Of a stretch of DNA of 64,000 nucleotides, positions 10,916 to 57,122 are shown in pieces. Position 1 is the stretch's first letter. Each line of letters begins with the position of its first letter. The DNA is from an uncultured Prevotellaceae bacterium. GTDB lineage: Bacteria; Bacteroidota; Bacteroidia; Bacteroidales; Bacteroidaceae. The stretch spans positions 62,001 through 126,000 of the forward strand of contig ONNV01000005.1 in the NCBI GenBank assembly GCA_900319225.1, read 5' to 3'. A program made the translations under genes and the position numbers. The notes under the pieces were generated by a model, which searched no databases, was not told the origin of the DNA, and was given only the letters and a program-made list of their open reading frames with translations.

Positions 10916-11012
10916 GGGGACGGTTCTGTTCGCGTTAGGGACGGTTCTGTTCGCGTTGGGGACGGTTCTGTTCGCGTTAGGGACGGTTCTGTTCGCAAAC
11001 AGAACCGTCCCC
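10916..11012. repeat. Family 1 variant: four tandem copies plus one inverted copy
   Basis: A 20-22-bp unit beginning GGGACGGTTCTGTTCGC recurs four times head to tail (starts 10916, 10938, 10958, 10980) and is followed by one inverted copy, GCAAACAGAACCGTCCCC (10995-11012, one mismatch). Any direct copy can pair with the inverted one. The array separates convergent genes and its right part encodes the last residues of the Nudix protein. Confidence 0.9.
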
Positions 11013-32608: not shown

Positions 32609-35209
32609 ATGAGATTATCAAAAGTTTGTTTTCCAGTCTTTGGTTTGCTGGTGGCCGCATGTTCAGGTGGCGCACCGACAGATGGTACTCAACTGGCTAA
32701 CGGCAAGTATACTGCCGATGCACTTAACGTTGAGAGTACTATTACCGCTACGGTGACCGTAAAGGGTCACAAGATTGCCGCTGTATCCGTGAAGGATAAC
32801 GGTAATACCTACGCACAGTACACATCGCCTTACACTATCGTTCCCAAGAGGATAGTCGAGGCCCAGAGTACAGATGTCGATGGCGTTACAGGCGCCACTT
32901 ATTCATCGGACGCAGTCAAGAAGGCTGTTGATCTGGCTCTTGCACAGGCACGCGGTGAGAAACCGGTTCCTGCCAAGAACGCAGCACTCGGTTTCACTCC
33001 CGGCACATATACCGGACGTGGAAAGGGTTACGGTGGTCAGATGCAGGCTCGTGTCACATTCAGCGAGACCGGCATTACCGGAATCAGCGTAGGCCAGCAG
33101 CGTGAGACAGCTCACGTGGGCGATGTGGCTTTCCAGATACTTCCCGATAAGATAATCGCTGCCAACGGACTTGGCGTTGACGCCGTATCAGGTGCTACAA
33201 TGTCAAGTTTCGGCCTTAAGGAGGCTGTGCTGGATGCAGCTGACCAGGCTGGAGTTACAAACCGCAAGGCATTCATCGAGAATTCATTAGAGAGCACTCC
33301 CGGTGATCCCATTGATGATACATGGGATGTAGTTATCATAGGTGGTGGCGGTGCCGGTCTCTGTGCTGCAGCACAGGCTGCACAGGACGGAAACACAGTC
33401 CTGATTATTGAAAAGAACGCCGAGCTGGGCGGTAACACGCTTGTATCAGGTGGTGTATATCAGTCAGTTGACCACAGCCTGGTTTGGGACAAGGATTATC
33501 CTACCGCTACCAGTGCCAAGGGTTTTGACGGTAACAAGCATAACAAGGTTCGTGCAACGGTTGGTTGCGTAAATGACCTCAAGGTTATCTATGACTGGAG
33601 CGAGGAGCCGTTTGATGCTGATTATTACAAGGATCACGAGTTTGTGGCCGGTGATATCGTGGAGCTCTCCAAGCACGGAGTACACGCCGAGTATCTGCAG
33701 ACCCTTAAGGATCTTAAGAAAGAGATCAAGGCTTATCTGGCATATGCAGAGCCCAATCTCAAGCGTGGCGTTCCCGAGAATCAGCTCACTCTGTTCTCAA
33801 CTACAAACCTGCATATCTTCCAGACCTACTACGGTGGTCTGCGTCAGAACACTGCCAAGGATGAATGGATATACGGTGACTATGACCTTGTAAAGCAGTT
33901 CATCGTTGAGGGTGAGCAGCTCAAACCCTGGCTCATGAAGATGGGCGTTGGATTCAGTGACAGCCAGTCAACACTGGTAGGTGCGCTGTGGTATCGCGGT
34001 AACACCATGAACGGTTGCACTACCGATGCCGACGGTGACGGCAATCCCGAGCGTTATTCAGGAAACTGGGGCTCATACGTTATGGCTCCTCTTTCAGTGG
34101 TCAACAACGCCAACAAGCACAACCGCGTGATGAGGGAGACCAGCGCCAACGAGCTCATATTTGAGAACGGCCGCGTAACAGGCGTAAAGGCCAAGATGGC
34201 CGATGGCACTCAGGTTACCGCTCATGCCAAGAAGGGCGTGATTATCGCTACCGGCGGATATGCTGCCAATATTCAGAAGGTGCTCAAGACCAACAAGTAC
34301 TGGTCACGCCAGTATCTGTCACCCAACATAGGTACCACCAACCGTTCTTCACTGCGCGGTGACGGTATCGATATGGCTCAGAAAGTTGGTGCCGCAACTG
34401 TAGGCGAGGGTTACACTCAGCTCATGCCTCTGGCTTATATTGCCGATGGTGCCATCGCATTCGGCGGTGTTGAGAACGCAATATTCATCAGCACCAAGGA
34501 CGGTAAGCGTTATGTAGACGAGTGCTCTGAGCGTGATGTCCTGTCACTGAACGGATTCAAGCACGGCGTTGAGCTGGAAGGCAGACGTGGTGTATATCTC
34601 TATGTGATGGGAGGCTTCGGCGGATTCGGCGGCGGATTCGGCGGCGGATTCGGTGGATTCGGCGGTGGCGGATTCGGAGGCTTTGGTGCAGGTGCTCCCG
34701 GTGCGGGCAACCAGAACAATGCCAGCGCAAATGTCCGTCGTTTCAACGGCCGTGACTGGAGCGGTAAGGGATCAGAACTGCCGGAACTCTTTGAGGAACT
34801 TGGCATCACACTTGATGCAGAGGTAGTAAAGAATAGCATCCGTGAGTATGATATGGCTGTTATGGACGGCCGTGAGCCTTCTCCGATAGGAAAGCGTCAC
34901 GCAACCGGTATCATCGGCTCTGCACGTCGCGGTGCCGACGGTCAGTATGACAAGTCAACCTATAACATTGATGATGCCAACCTGTCAATCCGCGTGCTTG
35001 CTCCTTCAACCCACCATACTATGGGTGGCCTTAAGATTGACCTGGACCGCCGCGTCCTGGATGAGAACGGCAAGGCTATTCCGGGCCTCTATGCCGCAGG
35101 TGAGGTAACCGGCGGATTCTTTGGCGGTAACCGTCTGGGTGGTAACGCCCTTACCGAGTGCATGGCATCGGGACGTATCGCTGCTAAAGGCGTTGAAAAA
35201 GACAACTAA
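32609..35209 (+). CDS. Exported flavinylated fumarate-reductase-like flavoprotein with Gly/Phe-rich insertion
   Basis: 866 residues; lipoprotein-type signal ending LLVAACSGG (lipid Cys about 18). Two FMN-binding domains follow (about 30-115 and 130-215), with covalent-FMN sites VTGATYSS (Thr97) and VSGATMSS (Thr197), then a flavocytochrome-c/fumarate-reductase FAD domain starting at DVVIIGGGGAGLCAAAQA. Catalytic residues of that family are present: Arg642 in SERDVLS, His802/803 in HHTMGG, Arg842 in GNRLGG. It probably reduces an alkene-type acceptor (fumarate, urocanate, acrylate or similar) outside the cytoplasm. Residues 667-700 are an inserted run of GGF and GGGF units ending in GAGAPGAG, not found in usual family members. 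It lies 107 bp after rnfA. Confidence 0.88.
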   Translation: MRLSKVCFPVFGLLVAACSGGAPTDGTQLANGKYTADALNVESTITATVTVKGHKIAAVSVKDNGNTYAQYTSPYTIVPKRIVEAQSTDVDGVTGATYSSDAVKKAVDLALAQARGEKPVPAKNAALGFTPGTYTGRGKGYGGQMQARVTFSETGITGISVGQQRETAHVGDVAFQILPDKIIAANGLGVDAVSGATMSSFGLKEAVLDAADQAGVTNRKAFIENSLESTPGDPIDDTWDVVIIGGGGAGLCAAAQAAQDGNTVLIIEKNAELGGNTLVSGGVYQSVDHSLVWDKDYPTATSAKGFDGNKHNKVRATVGCVNDLKVIYDWSEEPFDADYYKDHEFVAGDIVELSKHGVHAEYLQTLKDLKKEIKAYLAYAEPNLKRGVPENQLTLFSTTNLHIFQTYYGGLRQNTAKDEWIYGDYDLVKQFIVEGEQLKPWLMKMGVGFSDSQSTLVGALWYRGNTMNGCTTDADGDGNPERYSGNWGSYVMAPLSVVNNANKHNRVMRETSANELIFENGRVTGVKAKMADGTQVTAHAKKGVIIATGGYAANIQKVLKTNKYWSRQYLSPNIGTTNRSSLRGDGIDMAQKVGAATVGEGYTQLMPLAYIADGAIAFGGVENAIFISTKDGKRYVDECSERDVLSLNGFKHGVELEGRRGVYLYVMGGFGGFGGGFGGGFGGFGGGGFGGFGAGAPGAGNQNNASANVRRFNGRDWSGKGSELPELFEELGITLDAEVVKNSIREYDMAVMDGREPSPIGKRHATGIIGSARRGADGQYDKSTYNIDDANLSIRVLAPSTHHTMGGLKIDLDRRVLDENGKAIPGLYAAGEVTGGFFGGNRLGGNALTECMASGRIAAKGVEKDN

Positions 35210-35215
35210 CCAGTT

Positions 35216-35301
35216 GGGGACTGTACCCCTGTGTTATTTTGAAAAAATGGCACAGGGGGACTGTCCCCGTTGAAAATGGCACAGGGGGACTGTCCCCGTT
35301 G
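35216..35301. repeat. Family 1 palindromic element, locus 4 (with tandem duplicate)
   Basis: A degenerate first copy (35216-35240, GGGGACTGTACCCC then TGTGTTATTTT) is followed by an inverted-arm copy at 35244-35272 and an exact 29-bp tandem duplicate at 35273-35301. Each carries AAAATGGCACAG then the GGGGACTGTCCCC core. The array ends 5 bases before the ispE ATG. Confidence 0.88.
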
Positions 35302-35306
35302 AAGAG

Positions 35307-36227
35307 ATGATAACATTCCCAAACGCGAAAATAAACATAGGACTTAATGTCGTGGCCAAACGCACAGACGGCTACCACGACATTGAGACCGTGTTCTATC
35401 CGGTGCTCCTGCAGGATGCCCTGGAGATAACGCTTATGCGTCCGCTTGATCCGGCCCAACTTATCAAACGTCTGGAGGCCGGTCTTCTGGTCCAGCCAGA
35501 TGACGCGTTCATGCCGTACCGTCTGCTGCGCAAAAGGGAGGATATCCCCTGCTGCTCACTCGATATGACGGGTAACGAGTTCCCGTTCAAGGCGGCCGAT
35601 AATCTGGTGGTCAAGGCTTACCTTTTGCTGCAGCAGGATTTTGACCTGCCGTCAATAGACATCAAGCTGCACAAGCATATACCTTCTGGAGCAGGATTGG
35701 GCGGTGGCTCATCGGACTGTGCGTTCATGATTTCACTGCTTAACCGCAGGTTCAACCTACGTATGCGTGAGAGCCTGATGGAGCGTTATGCCGCACGCTT
35801 GGGTTCGGACTGCGCGTTCTTTATAAGCAACATGCCGTCACTTGCCACGGGTAGGGGAGAGATCCTCAATCCTATCACCCTTTCGCTTAAGGGTTACACT
35901 ATCCTGCTGGTTAAGCCCGATGTATCGGTCAGCACGGCCGAGGCATACGCATCGCTTACTCCCAAACAGCCTGAGATTCCGCTTGCAGAGGCAATCAAAC
36001 GCCCTGTGACGGAGTGGAAGGATTGTGTGTTCAATGACTTTGAGACTACGGTTTTTGCCAAGTATCCGCTTCTGGCTGATATAAAGCAGAAACTCTACTC
36101 TATGGGTGCCGTCTATGCCGCCATGTCCGGCTCCGGCTCCACAATCTACGGCCTGTTCCGCACACCCGTGGATAATCCCTCTGACCTGTTCCCGGGTATG
36201 TTCACCTGCCAGCGTGAGATGGCTTAA
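35307..36227 (+). CDS. ispE: 4-diphosphocytidyl-2-C-methyl-D-erythritol kinase
   Basis: 306 residues. GHMP kinase motifs are visible: PNAKINIGLNVVAKRTDGYHD at the N-terminus, ATP loop SGAGLGGGSSDCA, and the C-terminal AMSGSGSTIYG. IspE phosphorylates CDP-methylerythritol in the non-mevalonate isoprenoid route. Cytoplasmic. Its leader is made up almost wholly of palindromic repeat, which may influence translation. A small exported-protein gene follows after 12 bp. Confidence 0.95.
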   Translation: MITFPNAKINIGLNVVAKRTDGYHDIETVFYPVLLQDALEITLMRPLDPAQLIKRLEAGLLVQPDDAFMPYRLLRKREDIPCCSLDMTGNEFPFKAADNLVVKAYLLLQQDFDLPSIDIKLHKHIPSGAGLGGGSSDCAFMISLLNRRFNLRMRESLMERYAARLGSDCAFFISNMPSLATGRGEILNPITLSLKGYTILLVKPDVSVSTAEAYASLTPKQPEIPLAEAIKRPVTEWKDCVFNDFETTVFAKYPLLADIKQKLYSMGAVYAAMSGSGSTIYGLFRTPVDNPSDLFPGMFTCQREMA

Positions 36228-38580: not shown

Positions 38581-38751
38581 GGAACTTGGAGCATATAGGT
38601 CTCCAGGACAATGCCCTCCCACAACATCTTGTATCTATTCCGAAACTACGAACAAGTTCCTAGTTCCAGAATAGATACAACATGTCGCGGGCCCCTCCCA
38701 CTAGTCTCGCGTGGGTGCGAGAGTCCTGGAGACCTATATGCTCCAAGTTCC
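38581..38751 (+). repeat. Family 3 structured element, copy A (3' of dnaB)
   Basis: Outer arms 38581-38609 and 38723-38751 are perfectly complementary over 29 bp. Inside are a conserved GCCCTCCCACAAC (38613-38625), a hairpin with arms 38624-38640 and 38669-38685 (TTGTATCTATTC/GAATAGATACAA plus ACAT/ATGT, one C-C mismatch), and a conserved segment 38684-38722 containing CCCCTCCCACTAG and a TCTCGC-GTGGGT-GCGAGA hairpin. The core is almost identical to copy B at 50626 but the outer arms are unrelated. Either a structured RNA or a mobile hairpin element. Confidence 0.85.
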
Positions 38752-38794
38752 GCTCATTTAGCACTGTTTCTGCAATTTTTATAGATAAAATTAG

Positions 38795-38802
38795 TAATTT
38801 TG
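38795..38802 (+). promoter_or_regulatory. -7 box (TAATTTTG) of pheT
   Basis: TAnnTTTG match followed by C, 26 bp upstream of the pheT ATG. Confidence 0.55.
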
Positions 38803-38828
38803 CTGTTTGAAAACGAAATAGGTGTTTT

Positions 38829-41321
38829 ATGAACGTTTCATATAAGTGGCTCAAGGAGTATGTTGACTTTGATCTGACCCCTGATGAGGTGGCTGCTGCC
38901 CTTACATCGGTAGGTTTGGAAGTTGACGGAGTAGAGGAGGTTCAGTCCGTAAAGGGCGGACTCAAGGATATAGTTGTAGGTGAGGTTCTTACCTGCGTGG
39001 AGCATCCCAATTCTGACCATCTGCATGTAACTACTGTCAATCAGGGCAGCGGTGATCCCGTGAAGATTGTCTGCGGCGCACCCAACGTGGCTGCCGGCCA
39101 GAAGGTTGTGGTTGCTACCATCGGCGCCAAGATCTATGAGGGCGACGAGTGCTTTACCATCAAACCTTCAAAGCTGCGTGGCGTTGAGTCATTCGGTATG
39201 CTCTGCTCTGAGAAGGAGCTGGGTCTGGGTAATGACCACTCCGGTATCATGGTCCTCCCGGCCGATGCCGTTCCCGGCACTCCCGCAGCCGAGTATTTCC
39301 ACCTGGAGTCAGACTACGTGATTGAGGTGGATATCACTCCTAACCACAGTGATGCCTGCTCACACTGGGGTGTAGCCCGCGATTTCTACGCATGGCTGCT
39401 CCAGAACGGTTACAAGACCGCTCTGCACCGTCCTGACTGCGACGGCTTCAAGGTTGACAACCATGACCTGCAGATAGACATTGACGTTCAGAACACCGAG
39501 GCTTGCCCGCGTTATGCAGGTGTAAGCATCAAGGGCGTGACCGTAAAGGAGAGTCCTGACTGGCTCAAGAACAAGCTCTCTACCATCGGCCTTCACCCTA
39601 TCAACAATATAGTAGATATCACCAACTTCATACTTTTTGCATACGGACAGCCGCTGCACAGTTTTGATGCCGATAAGATCAAGGGTGGCAAGGTGGTTGT
39701 AAAGACCATGCCTGAGGGTACCCCGTTCGTAACTCTGGACGGTGTGGAGCGCAAGCTCTCCGAGCGTGACCTTATGATATGCAATGTAGAGGAGCCCATG
39801 TGTATGGGTGGCGTGTTCGGAGGTCTGGATTCAGGTATCTCTGACGGAACAAAGAACGTGTTCCTGGAGAGCGCCTATTTCCATCCCACATGGATCCGCA
39901 AGAGCGCCCGCCGTCATCAGCTCAGCACCGATGCATCTTTCCGCTTTGAGCGCGGCATAGATCCCAACGGTACGCTGTATGCACTCAAGCAGGCTGCAAT
40001 GCTGGTCAAGGAACTTGCCGGCGGTACCATCTCAATGGAGATTAAGGATGTCAATCCTGCACCCGCACAGGATTTCAAGGTTGACTTCAACTTTGAGTAT
40101 GCTGACAACCTGATTGGCAAGAAGCTGGACCGTGAGGTAATGAAGAGCATCGTTGAGAACCTGGGTATCAAGGTTGATGCTTTCAACGCTGACGGCATGA
40201 AGCTCTCTGTTCCTCCTTTCCGCGTAGATGTTCAGCGTCCGTGTGACGTAGTTGAGGAGATTCTCCGTATATACGGATATAATAATGTGGAATTCGGCAA
40301 GTCTGTCCAGTCAAGCCTGACCGTTCAGGGTGAGGTTGACCGCTCACACAAACTGCAGGATCTGGTATCCGAGCAGTTGGTAGGACAGGGATTCAACGAG
40401 ATACTTAACAACTCACTTACCCGTGCCGCCTACTATGACGGTATGGACTGCTGCCCCTCAGACAAGCTGGTTCGTCTTATGAACCCGCTCAGTGCCGATC
40501 TTAACGTACTGCGTGAGAGCCTGCTGTTTGGCGGTCTTGAGAGCCTCTCTCACAATATCCGCCGTCAGAGTGCCGACCTCAGGTTCTTTGAGTTCGGAAA
40601 GTGCTATTGGTTTGATGCCGATAAGCGCGAGCAGCTACGCCAGCCGGACCAGGAAGGTAAGGCTCAGAATCCTCTGCGTGCTTACAGCGAAGGATACCGT
40701 CTGGGAATCTGGCTTACCGGTAATCGCGTTTCTGGCTCATGGGCTCATGCTGATGAGGAGAACTCAGTATATGAGCTCAAGGCACACGTCCTGAATGTAT
40801 TTACCCGTGTGGGTCTGGCTCAGAGCGCCGTTCAGATTGAGGAGTTCCAGAACTCAATATTCGGCAGTGGTCTGCGTTACAAGCTGCGCTCTGGCAAGAC
40901 GGTTGCAGAACTGGGTCTTGTAAGCCGCGCAATGCTTAAGCTTACCGATGTCGAGCAGGCTGTATGTTTTGCCGAGATCAACTGGGATGAGCTGCTCAAG
41001 GCAACCCGCAAGGCCAAGACATCATTCGCCGAGCTGCCCAAGTATCCGGCCGTTCGCCGTGACCTGGCACTGCTTATTGACAAGAGCGTCAAGTTTGCTG
41101 ATATAGAGCGTCTGGCTTACCAGACTGAGAGCAAGCTGCTCAAGGAGGTAACCCTGTTTGATGTATATGAGGGTAAGAACCTGCCTGCAGGCAAGAAGAG
41201 CTACGCTGTTAGTTTCCTGCTGCAGGATGAGAGCCAGACTCTTAACGATGTCCAGATTGAGAAGGTAATGAACAAACTCATCCAGGCTGTTCAGACCAAG
41301 CTGGATGCACAACTCAGATAA
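38829..41321 (+). CDS. pheT: Phenylalanine-tRNA ligase beta subunit
   Basis: 830 residues, near the usual 800-820. Domains in order: N-terminal B1 with EMAP/OB-like tRNA-binding fold (VGEVLTCVEHPNSDHLHVTTV), B3/B4 editing domain (LHSFDADKIKGGKV), B5, the catalytic-like core (ALTRAAYY region and FFEFGKCYW) and the C-terminal FDX-ACB anticodon-binding domain (LPKYPAVRRDLALLID and SYAVSFLLQDESQTL). Forms the alpha2-beta2 enzyme with PheS, which is not adjacent. yebC follows after 26 bp. Confidence 0.97.
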   Translation: MNVSYKWLKEYVDFDLTPDEVAAALTSVGLEVDGVEEVQSVKGGLKDIVVGEVLTCVEHPNSDHLHVTTVNQGSGDPVKIVCGAPNVAAGQKVVVATIGAKIYEGDECFTIKPSKLRGVESFGMLCSEKELGLGNDHSGIMVLPADAVPGTPAAEYFHLESDYVIEVDITPNHSDACSHWGVARDFYAWLLQNGYKTALHRPDCDGFKVDNHDLQIDIDVQNTEACPRYAGVSIKGVTVKESPDWLKNKLSTIGLHPINNIVDITNFILFAYGQPLHSFDADKIKGGKVVVKTMPEGTPFVTLDGVERKLSERDLMICNVEEPMCMGGVFGGLDSGISDGTKNVFLESAYFHPTWIRKSARRHQLSTDASFRFERGIDPNGTLYALKQAAMLVKELAGGTISMEIKDVNPAPAQDFKVDFNFEYADNLIGKKLDREVMKSIVENLGIKVDAFNADGMKLSVPPFRVDVQRPCDVVEEILRIYGYNNVEFGKSVQSSLTVQGEVDRSHKLQDLVSEQLVGQGFNEILNNSLTRAAYYDGMDCCPSDKLVRLMNPLSADLNVLRESLLFGGLESLSHNIRRQSADLRFFEFGKCYWFDADKREQLRQPDQEGKAQNPLRAYSEGYRLGIWLTGNRVSGSWAHADEENSVYELKAHVLNVFTRVGLAQSAVQIEEFQNSIFGSGLRYKLRSGKTVAELGLVSRAMLKLTDVEQAVCFAEINWDELLKATRKAKTSFAELPKYPAVRRDLALLIDKSVKFADIERLAYQTESKLLKEVTLFDVYEGKNLPAGKKSYAVSFLLQDESQTLNDVQIEKVMNKLIQAVQTKLDAQLR

Positions 41322-41347
41322 ATAAAAACAAGAAAACATATAATACA

Positions 41348-42082
41348 ATGGGAAGAGCATTTGAATTCAGAAAGGCCCGCAAGCTGAAACGCTGGGGCAA
41401 CATGGCCAAGACATTTACCCGTATTGGCAAGCAGATTGCAATAGCTGTAAAGGCTGGCGGTCCGGATCCGGACAACAACTCAACATTGCGTGCTATCATC
41501 GCTACCGCTAAGCATGAGAACATGCCTAAGGACAACATCGAGCGTGCCATCAAGAACGCAATGGGTAAGGACCAGAAGGATTACAAGGAGATGAACTATG
41601 AGGGTTACGGTCCTCACGGAATCGCCATCTATGTTGAGACCCTTACTGACAACACCACCCGTACCGTTGCCAACGTACGTTCAGTATTCACCAAGTTCGG
41701 CGGCACACTGGGTACCAGCGGAAGCCTGGACTTCATGTTCAGCCACAAGTGCCAGTTCACCGTTGCACTTAAGGACGGAGTTGATATGGATGACCTGATC
41801 CTTGAGCTCATTGACCTGGGCATTGAGGAGGAGTATGATATCGACGAGGAGGAGAACGAGGTAACTCTCTATGGTGATCCCAAGTCATATGCCGCTATCC
41901 AGAAGTGGTTTGAGGAGAATGGCTTTGAGGTTAAGGCTGCCGAGTTCACCCGCATCCCCAATGACCTCAAGGATGTTACACCTGAGCAGCGTGAGACCAT
42001 TGACAAGATTGTTGAGCGTCTGGATGAGGATGATGACGTTCAGAACGTCTACACCAACATGAAACCTCTGGACGAGGAATAA
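41348..42082 (+). CDS. yebC: YebC/PmpR family protein
   Basis: 244 residues. N-terminal MGRAFEFRKARKLKRWGNMAK, then GGPDPDNNSTLRAIIATAK and YEGYGPHGIAIYVETLTDN, match the three-domain YebC fold. Members are described either as transcription regulators or as ribosome-associated factors easing translation of proline stretches. Cytoplasmic, acidic C-terminal end. Co-oriented with pheT, 26 bp apart. A family 1 hairpin with T-run follows the stop and likely terminates the unit. Confidence 0.93.
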   Translation: MGRAFEFRKARKLKRWGNMAKTFTRIGKQIAIAVKAGGPDPDNNSTLRAIIATAKHENMPKDNIERAIKNAMGKDQKDYKEMNYEGYGPHGIAIYVETLTDNTTRTVANVRSVFTKFGGTLGTSGSLDFMFSHKCQFTVALKDGVDMDDLILELIDLGIEEEYDIDEEENEVTLYGDPKSYAAIQKWFEENGFEVKAAEFTRIPNDLKDVTPEQRETIDKIVERLDEDDDVQNVYTNMKPLDEE

Positions 42083-42093
42083 TACTTTATGGT

Positions 42094-42142
42094 CAGTCCC
42101 CTTGTGTGCTCCTTTAGAGAAGGACACAAGGGGACTGTCTTT
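42094..42142 (+). repeat. Family 1 palindromic element, locus 5 (terminator-like)
   Basis: CAGTCCCCTTGTGT (42094-42107) and ACACAAGGGGACTG (42124-42137) are perfect 14-bp complements with a 16-base loop, followed by TCTTTTTC. The AGTCCCC core is conserved while the TTGTGT arm is specific to this copy. Acts plausibly as the yebC terminator. Confidence 0.82.
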
Positions 42143-42174
42143 TTCTCAATAGACCTAACCTTATTTATTTAATT

Positions 42175-42657
42175 ATGAAAAAGTTTGCTTTACTTGTTTT
42201 GACAGTAGTCTTTTGTTTTCAGTATGCATCGGCACAGTATGAAAGTTCCAACTGGAATGAACCTCTTAAGGGTAATATGACTTACAGTATCTGGACCGGA
42301 AAGATGAGGATTGGCGGGACAGAAATTGTCAAGGGAACTGAGAATCTGTATTTAAACGAGAGTGAGATGGATAAGTTCAGTGCTGCCAACACTTGGGGTA
42401 ATGTGGGCGGTACCATGATAGGTTTTGCTATAGGTTATCCCATAGGCTATTCTTTAGGAGGCGGAACTATGACTAAAGGGGCTAAGGTTGCCTGCGGTGT
42501 AGTGGGCGGTTTGGGATTGATCATTGCTGTGGCTGCTAATGCGAGCGTTCAGAAGGTGGTAAAGAGCTATAATCTCCGACAGACAGCAAGTTCAGGCTCG
42601 ATGGATCTGAGTTTTGTGGCTCATCCTACCGGAGTTGGCCTGGTATTGTCATTTTAA
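42175..42657 (+). CDS. Small exported Gly-rich protein of unknown function
   Basis: 160 residues; signal peptide cleaved after FQYASAQ. A short beta-rich part is followed by a Gly-rich hydrophobic stretch (about 75-122) with GGTMIGFAIGYPIGYSLGGG, a glycine-zipper-like pattern, and a C-terminus ending TGVGLVLSF. No family recognised. Similar in layout to the exported protein at 36240. Monocistronic. Confidence 0.6.
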   Translation: MKKFALLVLTVVFCFQYASAQYESSNWNEPLKGNMTYSIWTGKMRIGGTEIVKGTENLYLNESEMDKFSAANTWGNVGGTMIGFAIGYPIGYSLGGGTMTKGAKVACGVVGGLGLIIAVAANASVQKVVKSYNLRQTASSGSMDLSFVAHPTGVGLVLSF

Positions 42658-42703
42658 TTAAAATTTTGTTAAGAAACTAATGACAATTTGTAGCAAAAAG
42701 CAG

Positions 42704-42711
42704 TACCTTTG
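42704..42711 (+). promoter_or_regulatory. -7 box (TACCTTTG) of the wHTH gene
   Basis: Exact TAnnTTTG followed by CGCC, 26 bp upstream of the ATG at 42738. Confidence 0.6.
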
Positions 42712-42737
42712 CGCCGATATTTTAAAAAGATACAATC

Positions 42738-42935
42738 ATGAAAGAAATGGTAGGTGAATTTGCCGGTCTTATCTGGCGCGCACTGGAGGGTAAGAACGCC
42801 CTTTCACAGAAGGAAATTAAAAAGGCTACAAAACTGAAGGACAAAGAGTTTTATCTGGGACTCGGATGGCTACTCCGTGAAGACAAAATCAACGTTACTG
42901 AAGGTGAGGAGGAGAACTATTACGCTCTCAAGTAA
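42738..42935 (+). CDS. Winged-helix protein of the DUF2582 type
   Basis: 65 residues, a single small winged helix: LIWRALEGKNALSQKEIKKA followed by KEFYLGLGWLLREDKINV, and a wing ending ENYYALK. This matches the short DUF2582 proteins frequent in anaerobes; DNA binding is likely but targets are unknown. It has its own promoter and is followed by a bidirectional terminator, so it is a one-gene unit. Confidence 0.85.
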   Translation: MKEMVGEFAGLIWRALEGKNALSQKEIKKATKLKDKEFYLGLGWLLREDKINVTEGEEENYYALK

Positions 42936-42955
42936 ATATTTCTTATCTGTAAAAC

Positions 42956-42990
42956 AAAACAGCCGGATGCTTTAAGCACCCGGCTGTTTT
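42956..42990. terminator. Bidirectional terminator, wHTH gene/uxuB
   Basis: AAAACAGCCGG (42956-42966) pairs perfectly with CCGGCTGTTTT (42980-42990); GTGCTT-like inner bases extend the stem. Lies between convergent genes. Confidence 0.88.
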
Positions 42991-43005
42991 ATTGTGTACT
43001 GCCTG

Positions 43006-44592
43006 TTATCTGGCCAGTACGTACTTGTGCAGGGTCTTGCGGACTGCGCCGTTGCCGGCATAGAGTTCCTTGACCATGCCCTCAATGCGCTCGCCAAGAC
43101 CTGCCTCATACAGGTCAACGGCAAAGATATCCTTGCGGCTGTAGAGCTTCTTAAGGCATGAGTAGTCCTGATCAGGCTTACCAACCTCAAGCGGAGCAAC
43201 GATTGCCTGCATTTCGGCCAGCAGAGGATCGGGTGACGGATCAAACGGAGTACCGTCATCCTTGATACCCTTGAGGTAACGTGCCCAGCCTGCAAGTGCA
43301 AGCGGAATCAGTACAAGGTTGTCCTTGTCAAGACCGCGGGCTATGTACTTCTTTATGGTCTCACCAAAACGGATAGGAATTTTCTGGCTTGTGTCACATG
43401 CTATACGCTGGGGTGCATCGGGCATGAACGGGTTGGGCAGACGGCGTTTGATTACGGCGCCGATGAACTCGTACGGGTTCAGGATTCCCGGATCGGTTAC
43501 TACCGGCATTGCCTCCATGTAACCCATTTTCTGGATGAATGAGCGGATATCCTCATCGGCCATCTCGGCACTGATAAGGGTGTAACCCAGCATGCAGCCG
43601 TAGATGGCCATTGCAGTGTGCAGGGGGTTGAGGCAGGTGGTAACCTTCATGGTCTCAACCTTGTCTACGGTCTCACGTGTAGTATAGAGGGCACCGCCCA
43701 GGTCAAGCGGAGGACGGCCGTTGGTGTAGTTGTCCTCAATTACCAGGTACTGTACCTCCTCGGCATTCACGAACGGGGCTGTGAAGGTGTGCTTCTCAGT
43801 CTCGATGTAGTTGTTATCCTCAAATCCGTCCTTTGCCAGAAGTTCCTTAACCTTCTCGTGGGGGCGGGGAGTGATTTTGTCAATCATTGACCAGGGGAAT
43901 GTGATCTTGGTCTCATCCTTGAGGTATGCCAGGAAATCAGCCGGTACCAGCTTATCGGCAACCCAACGCTCGGCATATGCCATGACACCGGCCTTAACCT
44001 TGTCACCGTTATGTGAGCAGTTGTCCATGCTCTGGATGGTCAGGGGCAGCTTGCCTGCATTGTAGCGCTCCAGCAACAGGGCGCAAACCTTACCCATGGC
44101 GAACATTGGCTTGAGTCCGCGGGCCAGGTCAGCCTCATTGAATGTGTAACCCTTCTCAGTGATGGTGAATGATATCATCTGCAGTGACTTTGCCTTGAAG
44201 ATCTCAACCAGACGGTTCCAGTCAGAGAACTGGGGATCGGCCTTGAGGGCCTCGGTTACAGATGCAATAACCTTCTTCTCAATGGTTCCTGTTGACTGCA
44301 GGCTAACCAGCAGTGAGAGGTTGTCATATGGGGCGTAGGCCTTGTCAATGATCTCATAGTCAAAGGTCTCAGCCATGATTACGCCGCGGTCATACTTGCC
44401 GGTATTGAGCGCATCATTGATGATGGCTGCCGGGAAGGCGCGGAAAATGTTGCCGCCGCCAAAATGTACCCATGTGGGCTCATCATGTGTCTTGCGGCGA
44501 ACAGCCTCTATATCAAACTTGGGGAGCAGATAACCTTTCTTTTCCCACTCTGCGGCATTGAATTTGCCGCTTGTTATTTCTGTAAGTTTCAT
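43006..44592 (-). CDS. uxuB: Fructuronate reductase / mannitol dehydrogenase family
   Basis: 528 residues. N-terminal Rossmann part (PTWVHFGGGNIFRAF) and C-terminal mannitol-dehydrogenase domain (CLNPLHTAMAIYGCMLGY, IPIRFGETIKKYI) are typical of long-chain polyol dehydrogenases. Adjacent uxuA makes D-fructuronate to D-mannonate (NADH) the best assignment within the D-glucuronate route. Nine bp downstream of uxuA, same strand, so a uxuAB operon. The isomerase (uxaC) and 2-keto-3-deoxygluconate kinase are not in the window. Confidence 0.9.
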   Translation of the reverse strand: MKLTEITSGKFNAAEWEKKGYLLPKFDIEAVRRKTHDEPTWVHFGGGNIFRAFPAAIINDALNTGKYDRGVIMAETFDYEIIDKAYAPYDNLSLLVSLQSTGTIEKKVIASVTEALKADPQFSDWNRLVEIFKAKSLQMISFTITEKGYTFNEADLARGLKPMFAMGKVCALLLERYNAGKLPLTIQSMDNCSHNGDKVKAGVMAYAERWVADKLVPADFLAYLKDETKITFPWSMIDKITPRPHEKVKELLAKDGFEDNNYIETEKHTFTAPFVNAEEVQYLVIEDNYTNGRPPLDLGGALYTTRETVDKVETMKVTTCLNPLHTAMAIYGCMLGYTLISAEMADEDIRSFIQKMGYMEAMPVVTDPGILNPYEFIGAVIKRRLPNPFMPDAPQRIACDTSQKIPIRFGETIKKYIARGLDKDNLVLIPLALAGWARYLKGIKDDGTPFDPSPDPLLAEMQAIVAPLEVGKPDQDYSCLKKLYSRKDIFAVDLYEAGLGERIEGMVKELYAGNGAVRKTLHKYVLAR

Positions 44593-44600
44593 CTTAGTGA

Positions 44601-45854
44601 TTAATCAAAGAATCCGGGTTGTTTGTACTCAATTCCAAGCTCGCGGTCAACGGTAGCCAGTATTCCCTGTACCTGACCCATGGCGAACATACGGCCCAGC
44701 AGGGTGTAGCCTGCGTTGTGTCCGTGGCTTGACTCATCCATTATTCCGCCGGGGTTATCGGTAAATGTCATACCGTGGTCAACACGCATGGGCAGTGCCG
44801 GGTTTTCCTTCTCAAAGATGCGGCACAGCTCAACAAGGTCGGCACGGCCACCCAGGTGTGATGCCTCGGTAAAGTCACCGTTGGGGAATATGTGGCATGA
44901 ACGCAGGTGTACAAAATGTGTGCGTGACGCAAACTTCTTAGCCATCTCTACTACGTTGTTGTAAGCGCCTGCTGAGAGTGAACCTGCGCAGAAGGTAAGA
45001 CCGTTATGCTTGTTGGGCACTGCATCCAGGAACCACTGGATATCCTCCTCCGTACGTACTATGCGCGGCAGGCCAAGAACCTCAATCGGGGGATCATCAG
45101 GGTGTACGCACATGTTCATGTTGTACTCCTCACAGGTAGGCATGATTGCCTCCAGGAAGTATTTCATGTTGGCACGCAACTGTGCCTTGTCAATGCCTTT
45201 GTAAAGGTTCAGGAAATCACGGAACTTCTGTATGGGAGCCTCGTCGTTCTCGCTGAAGTTACCGCTAACGAATCCCTGGGTCTTGATGATGATGGTCTCA
45301 ACCAGCTTGTGCTCACCCTCCGGAGTCATGGTCTTGGCCAACGCATCGGCCTCAGCCAGAACGTTGCGGCCTTCACCTACACCTGCAGGGAAACGGAACT
45401 TAGCCCACTCCTCACGTGCGCCCTCGCGCTTAAGGATATAGATGTCAAAGTATGCAAACTCCGCATAGTTGAAATAGAGGTTGGTGGATCCGTTGGGGTT
45501 GATATGGAACAGGTCCGTGCGGGCCCAGTCAAGCACCGGCATGAAGTTGTAGCATATGCAGTGGATGCCCTCGGCCGACAGGTTGCGCAGTGACTCCTTG
45601 TAGACCTCAATCTGATGGTCCCGGTCCGGTCCGCCGTACTTGATGGTCTCAACCACCGGCAGACTCTCAACTACGCTCCAGCGCATGCCGTAGCTCTCAA
45701 TATACTCTCTGAGTTCGTGGATTTTCTCCCTGGTCCATACCTGACCCAGGGGTACGTCATGAAGGGCAGTTACAATGCCCTCAACGCCTATCTGCTTAAG
45801 CATGGCAAGCGTAATCTTATCCTTCTTGCCAAACCAGCGCCATGTTCTTTCCAT
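44601..45854 (-). CDS. uxuA: Mannonate dehydratase
   Basis: 417 residues. N-terminus MERTWRWFGKKDKITLAMLK and the blocks HDVPLGQVW, CIYNFMPVLDW-like (here CYNFMPVLDWARTDL), MNMCVHPDDPP, FCAGSLSAG, HLRSCHIFPNGDFTEA and RVDHGMTF are those of the UxuA family with its metal-binding His/Cys/Asp residues. It dehydrates D-mannonate to 2-keto-3-deoxygluconate in hexuronate breakdown. First gene of uxuAB; no clear TAnnTTTG box was found just upstream. Confidence 0.96.
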   Translation of the reverse strand: MERTWRWFGKKDKITLAMLKQIGVEGIVTALHDVPLGQVWTREKIHELREYIESYGMRWSVVESLPVVETIKYGGPDRDHQIEVYKESLRNLSAEGIHCICYNFMPVLDWARTDLFHINPNGSTNLYFNYAEFAYFDIYILKREGAREEWAKFRFPAGVGEGRNVLAEADALAKTMTPEGEHKLVETIIIKTQGFVSGNFSENDEAPIQKFRDFLNLYKGIDKAQLRANMKYFLEAIMPTCEEYNMNMCVHPDDPPIEVLGLPRIVRTEEDIQWFLDAVPNKHNGLTFCAGSLSAGAYNNVVEMAKKFASRTHFVHLRSCHIFPNGDFTEASHLGGRADLVELCRIFEKENPALPMRVDHGMTFTDNPGGIMDESSHGHNAGYTLLGRMFAMGQVQGILATVDRELGIEYKQPGFFD

Positions 45855-45914
45855 ACACTATATCTGTTGTTATGTTTTTGGACGTAAAGTTGCGAATAAT
45901 AAACGGTTTTTCAC

Positions 45915-45922
45915 TATTTTTG
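45915..45922 (+). promoter_or_regulatory. -7 box (TATTTTTG) of the two-repeat lipoprotein gene
   Basis: TAnnTTTG match, 23 bp before the ATG at 45946. Confidence 0.5.
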
Positions 45923-45945
45923 TGTTGCAAAAAATTCAAATTAAT

Positions 45946-47052
45946 ATGAATAAAATAGTTCGTTTCCATGCCGCACTGATTATGATGTGCGTTGTTGCCT
46001 TTAGCGTATCTCTAGGCTCTTGTGACAAGAATGAAGTTGACAGTCACGATGAGAACTCCCTCAGTCTGAAAGTAGACACCAACGGTGTGAACTTTACCCT
46101 TACGCCTCTCATAAACTGGAAGGCCAATCTGACTGATGTTGAAAAGTACATGGCCAAGTATTTCCCAGACTTTGATGTATGTTATAATGGAGAACTGAAA
46201 TATGATGAGTACTGTGGATATTGGTCATTGAAATATGAAAGCCATATCAACATGAGTGTTTCCTTTCTTCTCGTTAATGAACAGGGAGATGGTCTTGGTA
46301 TGACGGTTTTTAAATTCGCCAGTTCATGTAATGTGGATAAAATAAGGGAAGAATTATCCGGATTGGGCTTTAAATTTATGGGCCTGGTATACACTGATGG
46401 TTTTCCTGATGAATTGGAATATATGTATCTTTCCAATGATGAGAAACTTGAAGTTCAATTTATTGTTAACAACTGTGGGGATGAGGATTGCTGGTATTTA
46501 ACTTTCCAGCCCACAGACAGGAATGACTTGAATTATCTGATTGACACGACAAATCTTTGCATTAACGTTGATTTAGATGAGGGCAGCTATAGCCTGATCC
46601 CCTTTATGGATTGGAATGGCACATTGACCGATGTCAGGAACTACATGACTGAGAACTATCCGGATTGGGAAGCTGTTGATGGCGGAGCAATGATAATTGA
46701 TACCTTAGACTTTGATTCCATTCCACATTGGTATACCCTATACAAAAAGGATTCTCTATCTGTCTTCTACCATTTTGATGATATAGAGGGAATGATGTTT
46801 GGCAGTGTACAATATGCTTGCTACGGATCGACAGACTTGACACAGAATAGAAAAGAACTGACAAGAAACGGCCTTAAATATATAGGTCATTGCACATTGG
46901 ATTTTCAGGATCAAATATCCAATTACGTATATGTTCCTTTAAGTAAGGAATATTATGTGTCAGCTTCATCCTGGACTTTGTATGAAGGTGTCTGGACTAT
47001 AGATATAGTTCCATATAATGAGGAATTCATGGAACTGGTCAGTAAGGATTGA
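45946..47052 (+). CDS. Lipoprotein with two tandem homologous domains
   Basis: 368 residues from the ATG at 45946, just before the signal peptide; the longer frame runs back into uxuA territory. The signal ends VSLGSCDKNE (lipid Cys about 25). The mature part is a duplication: FTLTPLINWKANLTDVEKYM in the first half aligns with YSLIPFMDWNGTLTDVRNYM in the second, both followed by a PD(F/W) turn and a later hydrophobic block with (F/Y)IGH or FMGL. I recognise no named family. Exported, probably surface or periplasmic; function unknown. Confidence 0.72.
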   Translation: MNKIVRFHAALIMMCVVAFSVSLGSCDKNEVDSHDENSLSLKVDTNGVNFTLTPLINWKANLTDVEKYMAKYFPDFDVCYNGELKYDEYCGYWSLKYESHINMSVSFLLVNEQGDGLGMTVFKFASSCNVDKIREELSGLGFKFMGLVYTDGFPDELEYMYLSNDEKLEVQFIVNNCGDEDCWYLTFQPTDRNDLNYLIDTTNLCINVDLDEGSYSLIPFMDWNGTLTDVRNYMTENYPDWEAVDGGAMIIDTLDFDSIPHWYTLYKKDSLSVFYHFDDIEGMMFGSVQYACYGSTDLTQNRKELTRNGLKYIGHCTLDFQDQISNYVYVPLSKEYYVSASSWTLYEGVWTIDIVPYNEEFMELVSKD

Positions 47053-47074
47053 GGCCACGTATCCGTAATTTGTC

Positions 47075-47123
47075 AAAGTGTCCCCCATGAACCCCTCTCA
47101 CGGGTCGTGTGGGACACTTCTTT
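47075..47123 (+). repeat. Family 2 palindromic element, copy 2
   Basis: AAGTGTCCC (47076-47084) pairs with GGGACACTT (47111-47119); inner GAACCC/GGGTC adds to the stem; TTTTATT follows. The CAAAGTGTCCC start matches copy 1 at 19881. It lies after a stop codon and may serve as the terminator. Confidence 0.75.
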
Positions 47124-47200
47124 TATTCTTGTAACGTTTTTGCAGCGCATTTGCAGCAGTATTGCAATGCTGTTTCCTTGCCAAGCGCAGAGTGCCACCC

Positions 47201-47208
47201 TATCTTTG
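47201..47208 (+). promoter_or_regulatory. -7 box (TATCTTTG) of the DUF4419 gene
   Basis: Exact match, 31 bp before the ATG at 47240; the longer frame starting at 47162 would begin upstream of the promoter. Confidence 0.55.
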
Positions 47209-47239
47209 CTGGCAGAACAAACAAAAAACAGACAACGTT

Positions 47240-48766
47240 ATGAAAAAGCTGGTCATCATCATTATCTCACTGTTGTGTGTGAGTATGGCATATGCCAAAA
47301 AGAACAACGAGTCAGTAACAAGATTGGAGAATGGTGGAATTAAGTTCCATCTTGAAGACAAGGATGCGCCAACCAGACGTTTGGCTGAGATATCGGGGCA
47401 GGAGTGCTGGGAGAAGATACTGAGTGAATCAGGGATATCATTATCTCATGCAAATATCAAGACTCACAGCGCAGGTGACAGCAAGCTTGTATGCTTTGAC
47501 CGCAATGCCTGCTTTGAAGGATTCCTTACAGCCTTTGACAAACATTACTCTCTGGTGCTGTCGCCCGATATGATATGGTTGCTTATCAGTCAGGGGATAT
47601 CGACTCATATAAATCAGAATGCCGAGAATCTGCGTGACCGTCTGGTGGATTTTGATGGTCAGAGAACGCTTACTGTAACGACCGATAGCGATGTGTTTAA
47701 ACATGAGGAGGACTGGGACTGGATTATCCAGGCTTTCAGCGATTCGATTGACATGAACATGAAGGCGCAGTTCTCAGACCTGATGGTTTGCAATTTCAGT
47801 ACTACAGGTGCTTTGGAACGTATCACATCACAGATAACCATGATGGAGAGCGTCAAGAAATACTTTAAGTATGTACTTCATTACATGGGGTGTGGAATTC
47901 CTGATGTCACTCTGCTTGGAACTCCCGATGACTGGAAGGAGATTCGTTCTCGCATCAATAGACTTGATGACCTGGACCTAGACTGGTGGTGTGAGAGATT
48001 GAAACCTGTTCTTGACGAGTTTGTGAACGCATCTCAGGGTATTGTAAACCGTAAGTTCTGGCTTGATATGGTACAGGAGTATTCGCCTCAGAGAGCCGGC
48101 AGGGGAGGTTGCGGCGGTAGCAAAACAATTCCTGCAGAATACAACGGTTGGTTTACGGTATTCTTCCCGTTCTGTGAAGAAGAGGATGGATTTGAAGGCC
48201 CGCTTCATGTAGTCCGCACTCCAAGTATCGTTACTCATAATACCAAGGTTTGTTCGGAGTTAAAGAAGGTCGATGTCAAGTACATCATGACCTTCCCCGA
48301 TCATGAGGAAATCCATAATCTTGAGCTTTGGGCCGGATTCATCGGCATGGAGATGGACTGGAAAAACCATTCGCTGAAACCTGCCATGAGTTGGATGATG
48401 CGTGAAAAGATTGGCTCTGGCCTGGAATTGGATAAGTTGGAACGCGCTGAAGTTGAATTCTTGAATGAGTATGGTGACGGAAAGAAAAATATTTCCTTGT
48501 CCGAGATTTATTCAGTATTCGGTAGTTCTGAAAAATGGTATAACATTGGATTTCCTGATGTCCCGATGTTGGTAAAATACCCTGGTGAACATTTCTATAA
48601 GAATCATGTGTTCCTTTCTCTCGAACCTATTACGGTACCCCAGGACCTGGGTGAATGGTATCATAGGAACAAGATGGAGAGCCTGACAGTCAAGGCTCCC
48701 ATGACCGATGAACAGAAGGCCGATATCCTGCGTCAGGTTCCCACCGCCACAGTAGTCCAACTCTGA
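47240..48766 (+). CDS. DUF4419 domain exported protein
   Basis: 508 residues from the ATG at 47240, giving a signal peptide cleaved after SMAYA. The body contains LVLSPDMIWLLISQGISTHI, then WDWIIQAFSDSI, and MVCNFSTTG with YFKYVLHYMGCGIP, which is the DUF4419 pattern seen in bacteria and some fungi. A Gly/Cys-rich loop (AGRGGCGGSK) precedes AEYNGWFTVFFPF. No catalytic residues are established for this family. Secreted or periplasmic; function unknown. Confidence 0.85.
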   Translation: MKKLVIIIISLLCVSMAYAKKNNESVTRLENGGIKFHLEDKDAPTRRLAEISGQECWEKILSESGISLSHANIKTHSAGDSKLVCFDRNACFEGFLTAFDKHYSLVLSPDMIWLLISQGISTHINQNAENLRDRLVDFDGQRTLTVTTDSDVFKHEEDWDWIIQAFSDSIDMNMKAQFSDLMVCNFSTTGALERITSQITMMESVKKYFKYVLHYMGCGIPDVTLLGTPDDWKEIRSRINRLDDLDLDWWCERLKPVLDEFVNASQGIVNRKFWLDMVQEYSPQRAGRGGCGGSKTIPAEYNGWFTVFFPFCEEEDGFEGPLHVVRTPSIVTHNTKVCSELKKVDVKYIMTFPDHEEIHNLELWAGFIGMEMDWKNHSLKPAMSWMMREKIGSGLELDKLERAEVEFLNEYGDGKKNISLSEIYSVFGSSEKWYNIGFPDVPMLVKYPGEHFYKNHVFLSLEPITVPQDLGEWYHRNKMESLTVKAPMTDEQKADILRQVPTATVVQL

Positions 48767-48769
48767 TTG

Positions 48770-48809
48770 AAAATGGCACAGAGGGGACAGTCCCCCTGTG
48801 CCATTTTTT
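48770..48809 (+). repeat. Family 1 palindromic element, locus 6 (terminator-like)
   Basis: AAAATGGCACAG (48770-48781) pairs with CTGTGCCATTTT (48796-48807) around the GGGGACAGTCCCC core, then a T-run. Placed between the DUF4419 stop and the lepA promoter. Confidence 0.88.
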
Positions 48810-48812
48810 TGC

Positions 48813-48820
48813 TAACTTTG
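48813..48820 (+). promoter_or_regulatory. -7 box (TAACTTTG) of lepA
   Basis: TAnnTTTG followed by CGGCG, 19 bp upstream of the lepA ATG. Confidence 0.6.
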
Positions 48821-48839
48821 CGGCGTAAAAACACCCCAT

Positions 48840-50621
48840 ATGGAGAACATCCGCAACTTTTGTATTATTGCACATATCGATCATGGTAAGTCAACGCTGG
48901 CTGACCGCCTGCTGGAGTACACTCATACCATCAATATCACCGAGGGCCAGATGCTTGATGACATGGACCTGGAGAAGGAGCGTGGCATCACAATCAAGAG
49001 TCACGCCATCCAGATGGAGTATGAGTACAAGGGCCAGAAATACATTTTGAACCTTATTGACACTCCGGGACACGTGGATTTCTCATATGAGGTGAGCCGT
49101 TCAATTGCAGCCTGTGAGGGCGCAATCCTGGTGGTTGATGCCACACAGGGCGTGCAGGCTCAGACCATCAGCAACCTCTACATGGCCATTGAACATGACC
49201 TGGAGATCATCCCCGTCATAAACAAGTGCGACATGCAGAGCGCCATGCCCGATGAGGTTGAGGATGAGATCGTGGAGCTGATAGGTTGCAAACGCGAGGA
49301 TATCATACGTGCATCGGCCCGTACAGGAATGGGCGTTGAGGAGATTCTGAACGCAATCGTGGAGCGTATCCCGCATCCCGTGGGTGATCCCGATGCACCG
49401 CTGCAGGCCCTTATTTTTGACTCCGTATTCAACTCATTCCGCGGAATCATAGCTTATTTCAAGATTGAGAACGGCTGCATACGTAAGGGTGACAAGGTAA
49501 AGTTCTTCAATACAGGTAAGGAGTATGATGCCGATGAGGTAGGCGTGCTCCGTATGGATATGGTGCCGCGTGATGTGATGACCACAGGCGATGTGGGTTA
49601 TATCATCTCCGGAATCAAGACATCGACTGAGGTCAAGGTGGGTGATACCATCACTCATGTGGCCCGTCCCTGCGACAAGGCGATTGCCGGGTTTGAGGAA
49701 TCAAAGCCGATGGTATTCGCGGGCGTCTATCCCATTGAGGCCGATGAGTTCGAAGACCTGCGTGCATCACTTGAGAAACTGCAGCTGAACGACGCTTCGC
49801 TGAGCTTCTTCCCTGAGTCATCTGCTGCGCTGGGATTCGGATTCCGTTGCGGATTCCTGGGCCTGCTGCATATGGAGATAGTTCAGGAACGTCTGGACCG
49901 CGAGTTCGATATGAGCGTCATCACAACCGTGCCTAACGTATCATACATGGTGTATGACAAGCAGGGTAATGCTACCGAGGTACATAATCCCAGCGGCATG
50001 CCTGACCTTACCTTGATTGACCATATAGAGGAGCCCTATATTGACGCATCGATAATTACTACGACCGAGTATATCGGCCCTATCATGACCCTGTGCCTTG
50101 ACAAGCGCGGTGAGCTGGTAAAACAGCAGTTCATTGCGGGTAACCGCGTGGAAATTTACTTCAAGCTGCCTCTGGGTGAGATTGTGATTGATTTCTATGA
50201 CAAACTCAAGAGTATATCAAAAGGTTATGCGTCATTTGACTACCATCCCGCAGGATTCCGTCCGTCAAAGCTTATCAAGTTGGATATACTGCTTAATGGT
50301 GAGCCTGTTGATGCCCTGTCAACCCTTACTCACGTGGACAACGCCTATGACCTGGGCCGCCGCATGTGCGAGAAACTCAAGGAGCTCATCCCGCGTCAGC
50401 AGTTCGATATAGCGATCCAGGCTGCCATCGGCTCCAAGATCATCGCACGTGAAACTATCAAGCAGGTTCGTAAGGATGTAACCGCCAAGTGCTACGGCGG
50501 TGACGTGTCTCGTAAGCGCAAGCTTCTGGAAAAGCAGAAGAAGGGAAAGAAGCGCATGAAACAGATAGGTAACGTAGAAGTCCCCCAGAAAGCCTTCCTC
50601 GCTGTTTTGAAACTGGATTAG
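48840..50621 (+). CDS. lepA: Elongation factor 4 (LepA)
   Basis: 593 residues, standard. GTPase motifs [14 protein letters not shown] (G1), the RGITIK switch I, DTPGHVDF (G3) and NKCDMQ (G4); C-terminal LepA-specific domain with [20 protein letters not shown]. It acts on ribosomes in translation or 30S assembly. Monocistronic: own promoter in front, family 3 structured element 4 bp after the stop. Confidence 0.97.
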
Positions 50622-50625
50622 AAGG

Positions 50626-50783
50626 GAAATCAGACGATAAGGGCCTTTGAAACAACGCCCTCCCACAACGAAAAATATCTATTCCGAAACTGATCGTTCC
50701 AGAATAGATATTTTTAGTCGCGGGCCCCTCCCACTAGTCTCGCGTGGGTGCGAGAGTTCCAAAGGCCCTTATCGTCTGATTTC
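50626..50783 (+). repeat. Family 3 structured element, copy B (3' of lepA)
   Basis: Outer arms 50626-50653 and 50756-50783 are complementary in 27 of 28 positions. Inner hairpin AAAAATATCTATTC (50671-50684) / GAATAGATATTTTT (50702-50715). The segments GCCCTCCCACAAC (50657-50669), ATCTATTCCGAAAC, GTTCCAGAATAGAT and the 39-base block 50717-50755 are identical or nearly so to copy A; the outer arms and the ends of the inner stem differ but remain paired. Situated between convergent lepA and acyl-CoA ligase genes. Confidence 0.85.
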
Positions 50784-57057: not shown

Positions 57058-57122
57058 CCCAAAAGGGACAGTCCCCCTGTGCCATTCAAAAATGGCACAG
57101 GGGGACTGTCCCTTTTGGGTCA
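57055..57122. repeat. Family 1 palindromic element, locus 7 (perfect 32-bp arms)
   Basis: Arms 57055-57086 and 57091-57122 are perfect complements with a CAAA loop. The core GGGACAGTCCCC is flanked by CTGTGCCATT as at loci 4 and 6. Both outer ends are TGA on their respective strands and serve as stop codons of the two convergent genes. Confidence 0.93.

Follow-up and report, generated by a model that had tools for sequence, protein, structure and literature searches.

The two intergenic elements found in the 64,000-nucleotide stretch of Prevotellaceae DNA analyzed here (the window) tentatively represent a dispersed non-coding family built of two separable parts, a non-autonomous, exchangeable tip and a gene-end palindrome owned by the site, a reading to which we give somewhat less than an even chance. 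On the minus strand, the predicted fold of the tip (the core of the element) combines an H-type pseudoknot with a G-rich junction and a hairpin. The tip caps a palindrome, usually one lying where convergent genes meet at their 3' ends, and the arms of that palindrome would be a property of the site. Acting as a non-autonomous unit, mobile or gene converting, tips may spread from one gene-end palindrome to another, either by a putative trans-acting enzyme or by homologous recombination, and the folded strand may be what a mobilizing or host factor recognizes. The carriers are some rumen Bacteroidales, in which copies are numerous. The elements appear to form an undescribed structured, RNA-like class with a minimal core of ~75 nt.

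Two copies in the window and the fold of the core

The original prediction described two copies, one at positions 38581 to 38751 after dnaB (copy A) and one at positions 50626 to 50783 after lepA (copy B), with a common core and with 28- to 29-bp arms that are unlike each other yet paired within each copy. Its coordinates, the blocks common to both copies, the pairing of the arms (29/29 and 27/28), and the gap of 4 to 8 bp past the stop codons were all reproduced, and both upstream genes were borne out. The next gene past copy A is pheT, in the same direction as dnaB, and the next gene past copy B is acyl-CoA-ligase-like and convergent to lepA. The features of the two copies are as follows.

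38581 to 38609, no strand assigned: copy A left arm, 29 bp, pairing 29/29 with 38723 to 38751
38618 to 38691, minus strand: copy A long hairpin P3, its base CCCGCGAC/GTTGTGGG on the minus strand, with conserved G.U pairs
38697 to 38701, minus strand: copy A pseudoknot partner GTGGG (minus-strand letters), pairing with loop 38711 to 38715
38705 to 38722, minus strand: copy A hairpin P2 with a 6-nt loop at 38711 to 38716 (TCTCGC ACCCAC GCGAGA on the minus strand)
38723 to 38751, no strand assigned: copy A right arm, 29 bp, pairing with the left arm
38593 to 38739, minus strand: copy A, match to covariance model R1, 165.5 bits (R2, E = 4.4e-18; R3, E = 4.6e-12)
50626 to 50653, no strand assigned: copy B left arm, 28 bp, pairing 27/28 with 50756 to 50783
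50662 to 50724, minus strand: copy B long hairpin P3, from folding
50730 to 50734, minus strand: copy B pseudoknot partner GTGGG (minus-strand letters), pairing with loop 50744 to 50748
50738 to 50755, minus strand: copy B hairpin P2 with a 6-nt loop at 50744 to 50749
50756 to 50783, no strand assigned: copy B right arm, 28 bp, pairing with the left arm
50637 to 50772, minus strand: copy B, match to covariance model R1, 147.7 bits (R2, E = 1.6e-12; R3, E = 6.5e-14)

Covariance model R1 includes family A, the family of full copies described below, and R2 and R3 were built without it (R2 from the related family B); these two models detected the two window copies, again on the minus strand, at E values from 4.4e-18 to 4.6e-12. 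None of the three models found further copies in the window on its own strand, and two weaker plus-strand matches to R1 are the mirror of the same hairpins.

The strand on which the original prediction had read the structure proved to be the less structured one, as the complement folded better in 56 of 56 family A copies, by a mean of 16 kcal/mol. Against dinucleotide shuffles, fold z-scores were -13.0 (dnaB copy) and -9.8 (lepA copy) on the strand first read and -16.8 and -12.1 on the complement, and in each of these four folds (two copies by two strands) 0 of 200 shuffles folded as well as the real copy. The complement folds better because near-invariant A.C mismatches turn into G.U pairs: four stem positions are G.U or U.G in 44, 39, 44, and 44 of 44 rows on the complement (the five other rows at the second position being four A-U and one U.G), and the same four positions are A.C mismatches on the other strand.

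On the minus strand, the last five letters of the 6-nt loop of a short hairpin pair with the strand just downstream, which forms an H-type pseudoknot. In the 106 copies that could be parsed (55 of 56 in family A and 51 of 60 in family B), the two crossing helices pair by several pair types, and the knot pairs are CCCAC/GUGGG (55 copies), CCCGU/ACGGG (32), CCCUC/GAGGG (17), CCCAU/AUGGG (1), and CCCGU/GCGGG with one G.U (1); the regular expression for family A fixed the loop and its partner and the one for family B fixed three C-G pairs, so that the remaining pairs alone were tested. A copy from another family carries UCCUC/GAGGA. Among 19 diverse cores, 98.1% of cells were paired, versus 86.0% (standard deviation, 1.2) after shuffling, and pairing dropped to 32 to 56% when the 3' side was slid. 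Cells changed on both sides numbered 34, versus 10.7 in shuffles, and further pair types numbered 11 versus 10.4, which is no excess; the shared fold thus carries compensatory changes beyond chance, as a structured RNA would. In family B, hairpin P4 likewise varies while staying paired. These comparisons indicate that the tip is a conserved structured motif, and the case for selected structure made in the original prediction now comes mainly from this pseudoknotted core, which had not been seen earlier.

Pseudoknots of the H type whose first loop is a single letter are typical of RNA, and such a loop fits the minus strand and not its complement. As further evidence on the strand, mismatches in the arms, counted by hand in the 44 copies in register, comprise 16 A.C versus 4 G.T, or ~12 versus 4 after shared ones are merged (one-sided P value = 0.038). 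We consider the folded strand more likely to be RNA than single-stranded DNA.

Family distribution and placement at gene ends

Searches by BLAST, by pattern, and, as the original prediction had proposed, by covariance model revealed a dispersed family in the own genome and the genus, with short relatives in four other families of the order. The own genome contains seven full copies and one interrupted by an insert (BLAST and pattern searches). Among 37 genomes of the genus, 17 were matched by BLAST and 23 by R1, and 16 genomes of the genus yielded 56 distinct copies of family A; R1 also exposed the related family B, with 60 extracts, some from the own genome. Both counts are of distinct sequence extracts, with identical sequences counted once, and as many as two of the family B extracts, at contig ends of G009, may have been counted twice. 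Set A1 contains 44 of the 56 copies of family A (12 were omitted as near-duplicates or disrupted), sets A2 and A3 contain 52 of the 60 family B extracts, and set A4 contains 13 of the 15 matches from other families and 6 from the genus.

A search of 301 genomes of the bacterial family with R1 gave matches in 13, every one of them from the own genus among the 30 genera covered. For the order, R2 had matches in 5 of 393 genomes, spread over 5 of 207 genera: the own genus and four that belong to other families, with 2 to 5 matches each. The matches in other families span 69 to 132 nt and often have a tiny P3 hairpin; their outer arms pair better than any of 200 shuffles in 12 of the 13 tested (of 15 in total). 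At the level of the phylum, R3 hit the own genome and, outside the order, two further genomes by one match apiece (E = 9.9e-5 and 4.7e-4); these two matches are single, weak, and by eye unlike the motif, and we regard them as chance. Searches over more than 40 genomes used stricter filters, so absences there are soft.

Inserts occur in several copies. The interrupted family A copy of the own genome (L008 1335 to 1519; contig C13, ~88813 to 89039) has an extra insert of ~70 bp in its 3' part that can itself form hairpins. Five family B copies (L320 and L323, on C9 and C12 of the own genome, and L176, L189, and L194 of G007) have a multi-hairpin insert between hairpin P2 and the pseudoknot partner, and in L320 and L323 the partner is still complementary despite the insert.

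Family A occupies 16 sites, 12 of them convergent, 4 tandem, and none divergent. The 47 gene pairs of the window, which alone served as the baseline, include 6 convergent and 5 divergent pairs, giving P values of 2e-8 for convergent and 0.17 for divergent placement, with gene context assigned by longest-ORF heuristics and sites grouped by protein similarity. At 3 of the 4 tandem sites, the structured strand runs antisense to its flanking genes. Among the 60 extracts of family B, whose gene context was assigned by the same heuristics, 33 are convergent and 13 tandem (11 with the structured strand antisense, 2 sense); another 6 seem to be divergent, and in 8 one flank could not be assigned. Of the suggestion that the element is a 3'-untranslated-region RNA, the location 3' of genes holds, but the structured strand is mostly antisense in tandem contexts.

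At the 3' end of lepA, where 29 of 30 loci were parsed, four genomes of the genus have the element, four have a common plain terminator hairpin with a T run, one has a family B copy, and the others have GGGGAC-type palindromes or other sequence. This gap (L099 to L128) is a palindrome hot spot, filled by plain terminators, GGGGAC palindromes, family A, or family B depending on the species. By eye, at the lepA site and at a UvrD-like site (29 of 30 loci parsed), no target-site duplication was evident, a close empty site was not found, and the boundaries of the element were not fixed. One UvrD-like locus (L151, in G014) holds a remnant in which the core has seemingly been deleted between two CCTCCCAC repeats and the arms are degenerate.

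Exchange of cores and complementarity of arms

In comparisons that omitted three copies (L042, L081, and L082), core and arms varied separately. Among 1,284 different-site pairs, 23 had cores at least 97% identical with left arms alike at just 10 to 18 of 28 letters, two of these core pairs being identical at 111 of 111 positions. Conversely, in 8 of 94 same-site pairs the arms were identical at 25 to 28 of 28 letters and the cores were below 90%. This decoupling shows that tips and arms combine independently; a constant core with swapped arms therefore reflects a tip exchanged between sites, the arms staying with the site.

The outer arms were originally said to share no sequence, and for the most part they do differ; over the 56 copies, though, they are not wholly unrelated, with similar letters near the core. 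Left-arm identity across sites (48 copies, 1,023 pairs) is 0.61 to 1.0 at positions 2 to 5 from the core and 0.82 and 0.67 at positions 8 and 9, and further out it is mostly 0.25 to 0.55, but 0.62 at position 25. A short outer motif, GGGGAA / TTCCGCTC, was seen, without being counted, in many but not all copies. Pairing between arms is 70 to 98% for positions 1 to 28 and 52% at position 29 (56 copies), and the paired length, with indels allowed, is 27 to 29 bp in 25 of the 56 copies, 39 to 46 bp in 19, and otherwise 8 to 36 bp (12 copies). The arms of L042 are unpaired, and this copy looks like a recombinant between two elements; those of L081 and L082 are poorly paired.

The paired arm enters the upstream coding end by at least 3 nt in 11 of 52 cases and the convergent coding end by at least 3 nt in 18 of 49. 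At the UvrD-like site, genomes G025 and G031 have the same arms, which are 41 bp long and extend into the gene. Where the two genomes differ by a silent codon difference at the gene end, the opposite arm mirrors it with the complementary letter; their cores, in addition, lie in opposite orientations. Swapped arms alone are therefore no proof of RNA selection and are weaker evidence than originally thought, and the mirrored difference points to arm-to-arm copying at the DNA level. Given this difference and the decoupling of core and arms, we doubt that RNA compensation is the sole cause of arm pairing. The perfect covariation of the stem may stem partly from DNA palindrome copying, which is a caution for covariation-based RNA discovery.

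Same-site comparisons gave mostly paired double changes at several sites, so that a number of arm differences within a site are paired differences; such comparisons say nothing where the arms have lost register, for example in copies with a CGGCCTTCGGCCG linker. At lepA, the arm differences are all single and uncompensated, so arm copying would not be constant. The arms may owe their complementarity in part to copying, by template switching on a hairpin or by conversion, and in part to selection that favors pairing.

Alternative explanations and comparison with known systems

The elements might instead serve the host as 3'-end RNAs selected site by site, whether as bidirectional terminators, transcription barriers, 3'-end stabilizers, or processed small RNAs, a possibility that we take seriously while judging it rather unlikely. 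It would account for the strong bias toward convergent gene ends and for the position at lepA, where the element takes the ordinary terminator place of the plain hairpin and T run in four relatives. The lepA core is also kept in place, identical at 99 of 99 positions in four genomes whose upstream genes are 91 to 93% identical; this is the strongest evidence against our preferred reading, as expected of a function kept in place and not of a neutral insertion, though core identity between copies can also come from exchange. A host RNA fits less well with a structured strand that is mostly antisense to flanking genes in tandem contexts, with an orientation that varies between genomes at one site, with cores exchanged between sites, and with cores less conserved than the neighboring gene at some sites (0.80 versus 0.84 for L062/L052, among same-site pairs with an upstream identity of at least 0.70). 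The exchangeable tip on a site-owned palindrome has its own difficulties, since no mobilizing enzyme was found and no clean empty site with a target duplication was seen. If tips do move between palindromes, they would spread in an unusual way, with the stem provided by the host site; that a small pseudoknotted RNA hops between the tips of gene-end palindromes, the local arms staying and the cap alone being mobile, strikes us as unlikely.

Other readings turn on a partner enzyme; a search for a constantly associated protein gene had been proposed, and no reverse-transcriptase or Y1-transposase partner was found. DNA hairpins tolerate G.T pairs better than A.C, so an element whose hairpin fold matters as single-stranded DNA and is the substrate of an HUH or similar enzyme might also explain the strand preference, and REP-like palindromes share the same intergenic hot spots. 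We consider such an element improbable, as the core motif (at most 1 mismatch) lay within ~1.5 kb of a Y1 transposase in 0 of 30 PF01797 loci of the genus, compared with GGGGAC-type words in 21 of 30, and as an H-type knot of this kind is typically RNA; a REP driven by a Y1 transposase is disfavored by the same 30 loci. A small self-cleaving ribozyme class with a variable outer stem would fit the ~75-nt minimal core, the invariant letters, the pseudoknot, and the many copies, yet we hold it to be very improbable, with no match to Rfam ribozymes and a hypothetical cleavage. Permuted ribozymes (PMC10085705) are a lead only.

The retron-like or guide-bearing RNA of the original prediction now seems scarcely credible. 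Retron RNAs have, in outline, paired outer arms around a long hairpin, which the element resembles, but the reverse-transcriptase domain RVT_1 was found in 7 of the 37 genomes of the genus, none of them among six that are rich in elements (G000, G003, G006, G009, G028, and G031; bins ~78 to 89% complete), and the core motif was present in 0 of 13 reverse-transcriptase loci, so that the adjacent enzyme of retrons was not found. Searches with the window arms gave no match elsewhere: in the own genome, 24 bases of the dnaB arm hit just their own two arms at up to 3 mismatches, and no viral contig contained an exact copy of a 20-mer taken from each window arm. Carriage by phages or plasmids was likewise rejected, with no match for the dnaB copy or a minimal core (L317) in either, for one family B copy in plasmids, or for exact patterns in viral contigs. 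A looser pattern gave 5 viral stretches, one with an E value of 8.3e-6 to R1; we treat that one as chance, as it has 72% G+C and was picked by the motif itself.

The remark that no named RNA or element is known with this pattern stood in the searches made. No Rfam 15 model reached its gathering score in the window or at the elements in six loci, where the sole hit was a cobalamin riboswitch in L202 away from the elements, and E-value mode gave subthreshold hits only. The element's description was not recognized in the literature searched, in which coverage of subscription journals was thin.

Set beside known systems, the element is akin to REPs and MITEs in its lifestyle and to orphan RNA motifs in the way it folds, but it lacks features that define REPs, MITEs, and retrons. 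Of the earlier suggestions, a hairpin transposon in the broad, non-autonomous sense is close to our preferred reading, in which movement is presumed. Like MITEs, the element is short, non-coding, dispersed, and without its own enzyme, but MITEs share conserved terminal inverted repeats, whereas here an inner core is shared and the long arms are site specific, with the low left-arm identity beyond position 10 given above. Group IIC introns and stem-loop-targeting insertion sequences are associated with terminator-like stem-loops at gene ends, as the element is, but the latter has no reverse transcriptase or transposase, is much shorter, and keeps its arms around the core. Orphan structured RNA motifs from comparative genomics, such as the pseudoknot motif STAXI, share with it conserved letters, compensatory changes, and a pseudoknot (PMC2864571); dispersal at gene 3' ends with site-specific arms and the lack of an Rfam 15 gathering-score match set the element apart.

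REP, BIME, and REPIN sequences, which go with REP-associated tyrosine (Y1) transposases, are dispersed extragenic palindromes in many copies whose folded single strand matters. The element is likewise dispersed, palindromic, extragenic, and present in many copies, and its folded single strand would matter as well, but at ~160 to 220 bp, with a pseudoknotted core absent from the 30 Y1 loci, it lacks the 20- to 40-bp palindrome common to REP copies, its arms differing between sites. The GGGGAC palindromes of the genus fit the REP description better. Palindromes of this type, GGGGACAGTCCC / GGGGACGGTTCT, lie at 35205 to 35330, 48772 to 48805, 57053 to 57124, and 10916 to 10996 of the window, and because GGGGAC-type words flank Y1-transposase genes in the majority of PF01797 loci noted above, they are probably REPs of Y1 (RAYT-like) transposases.
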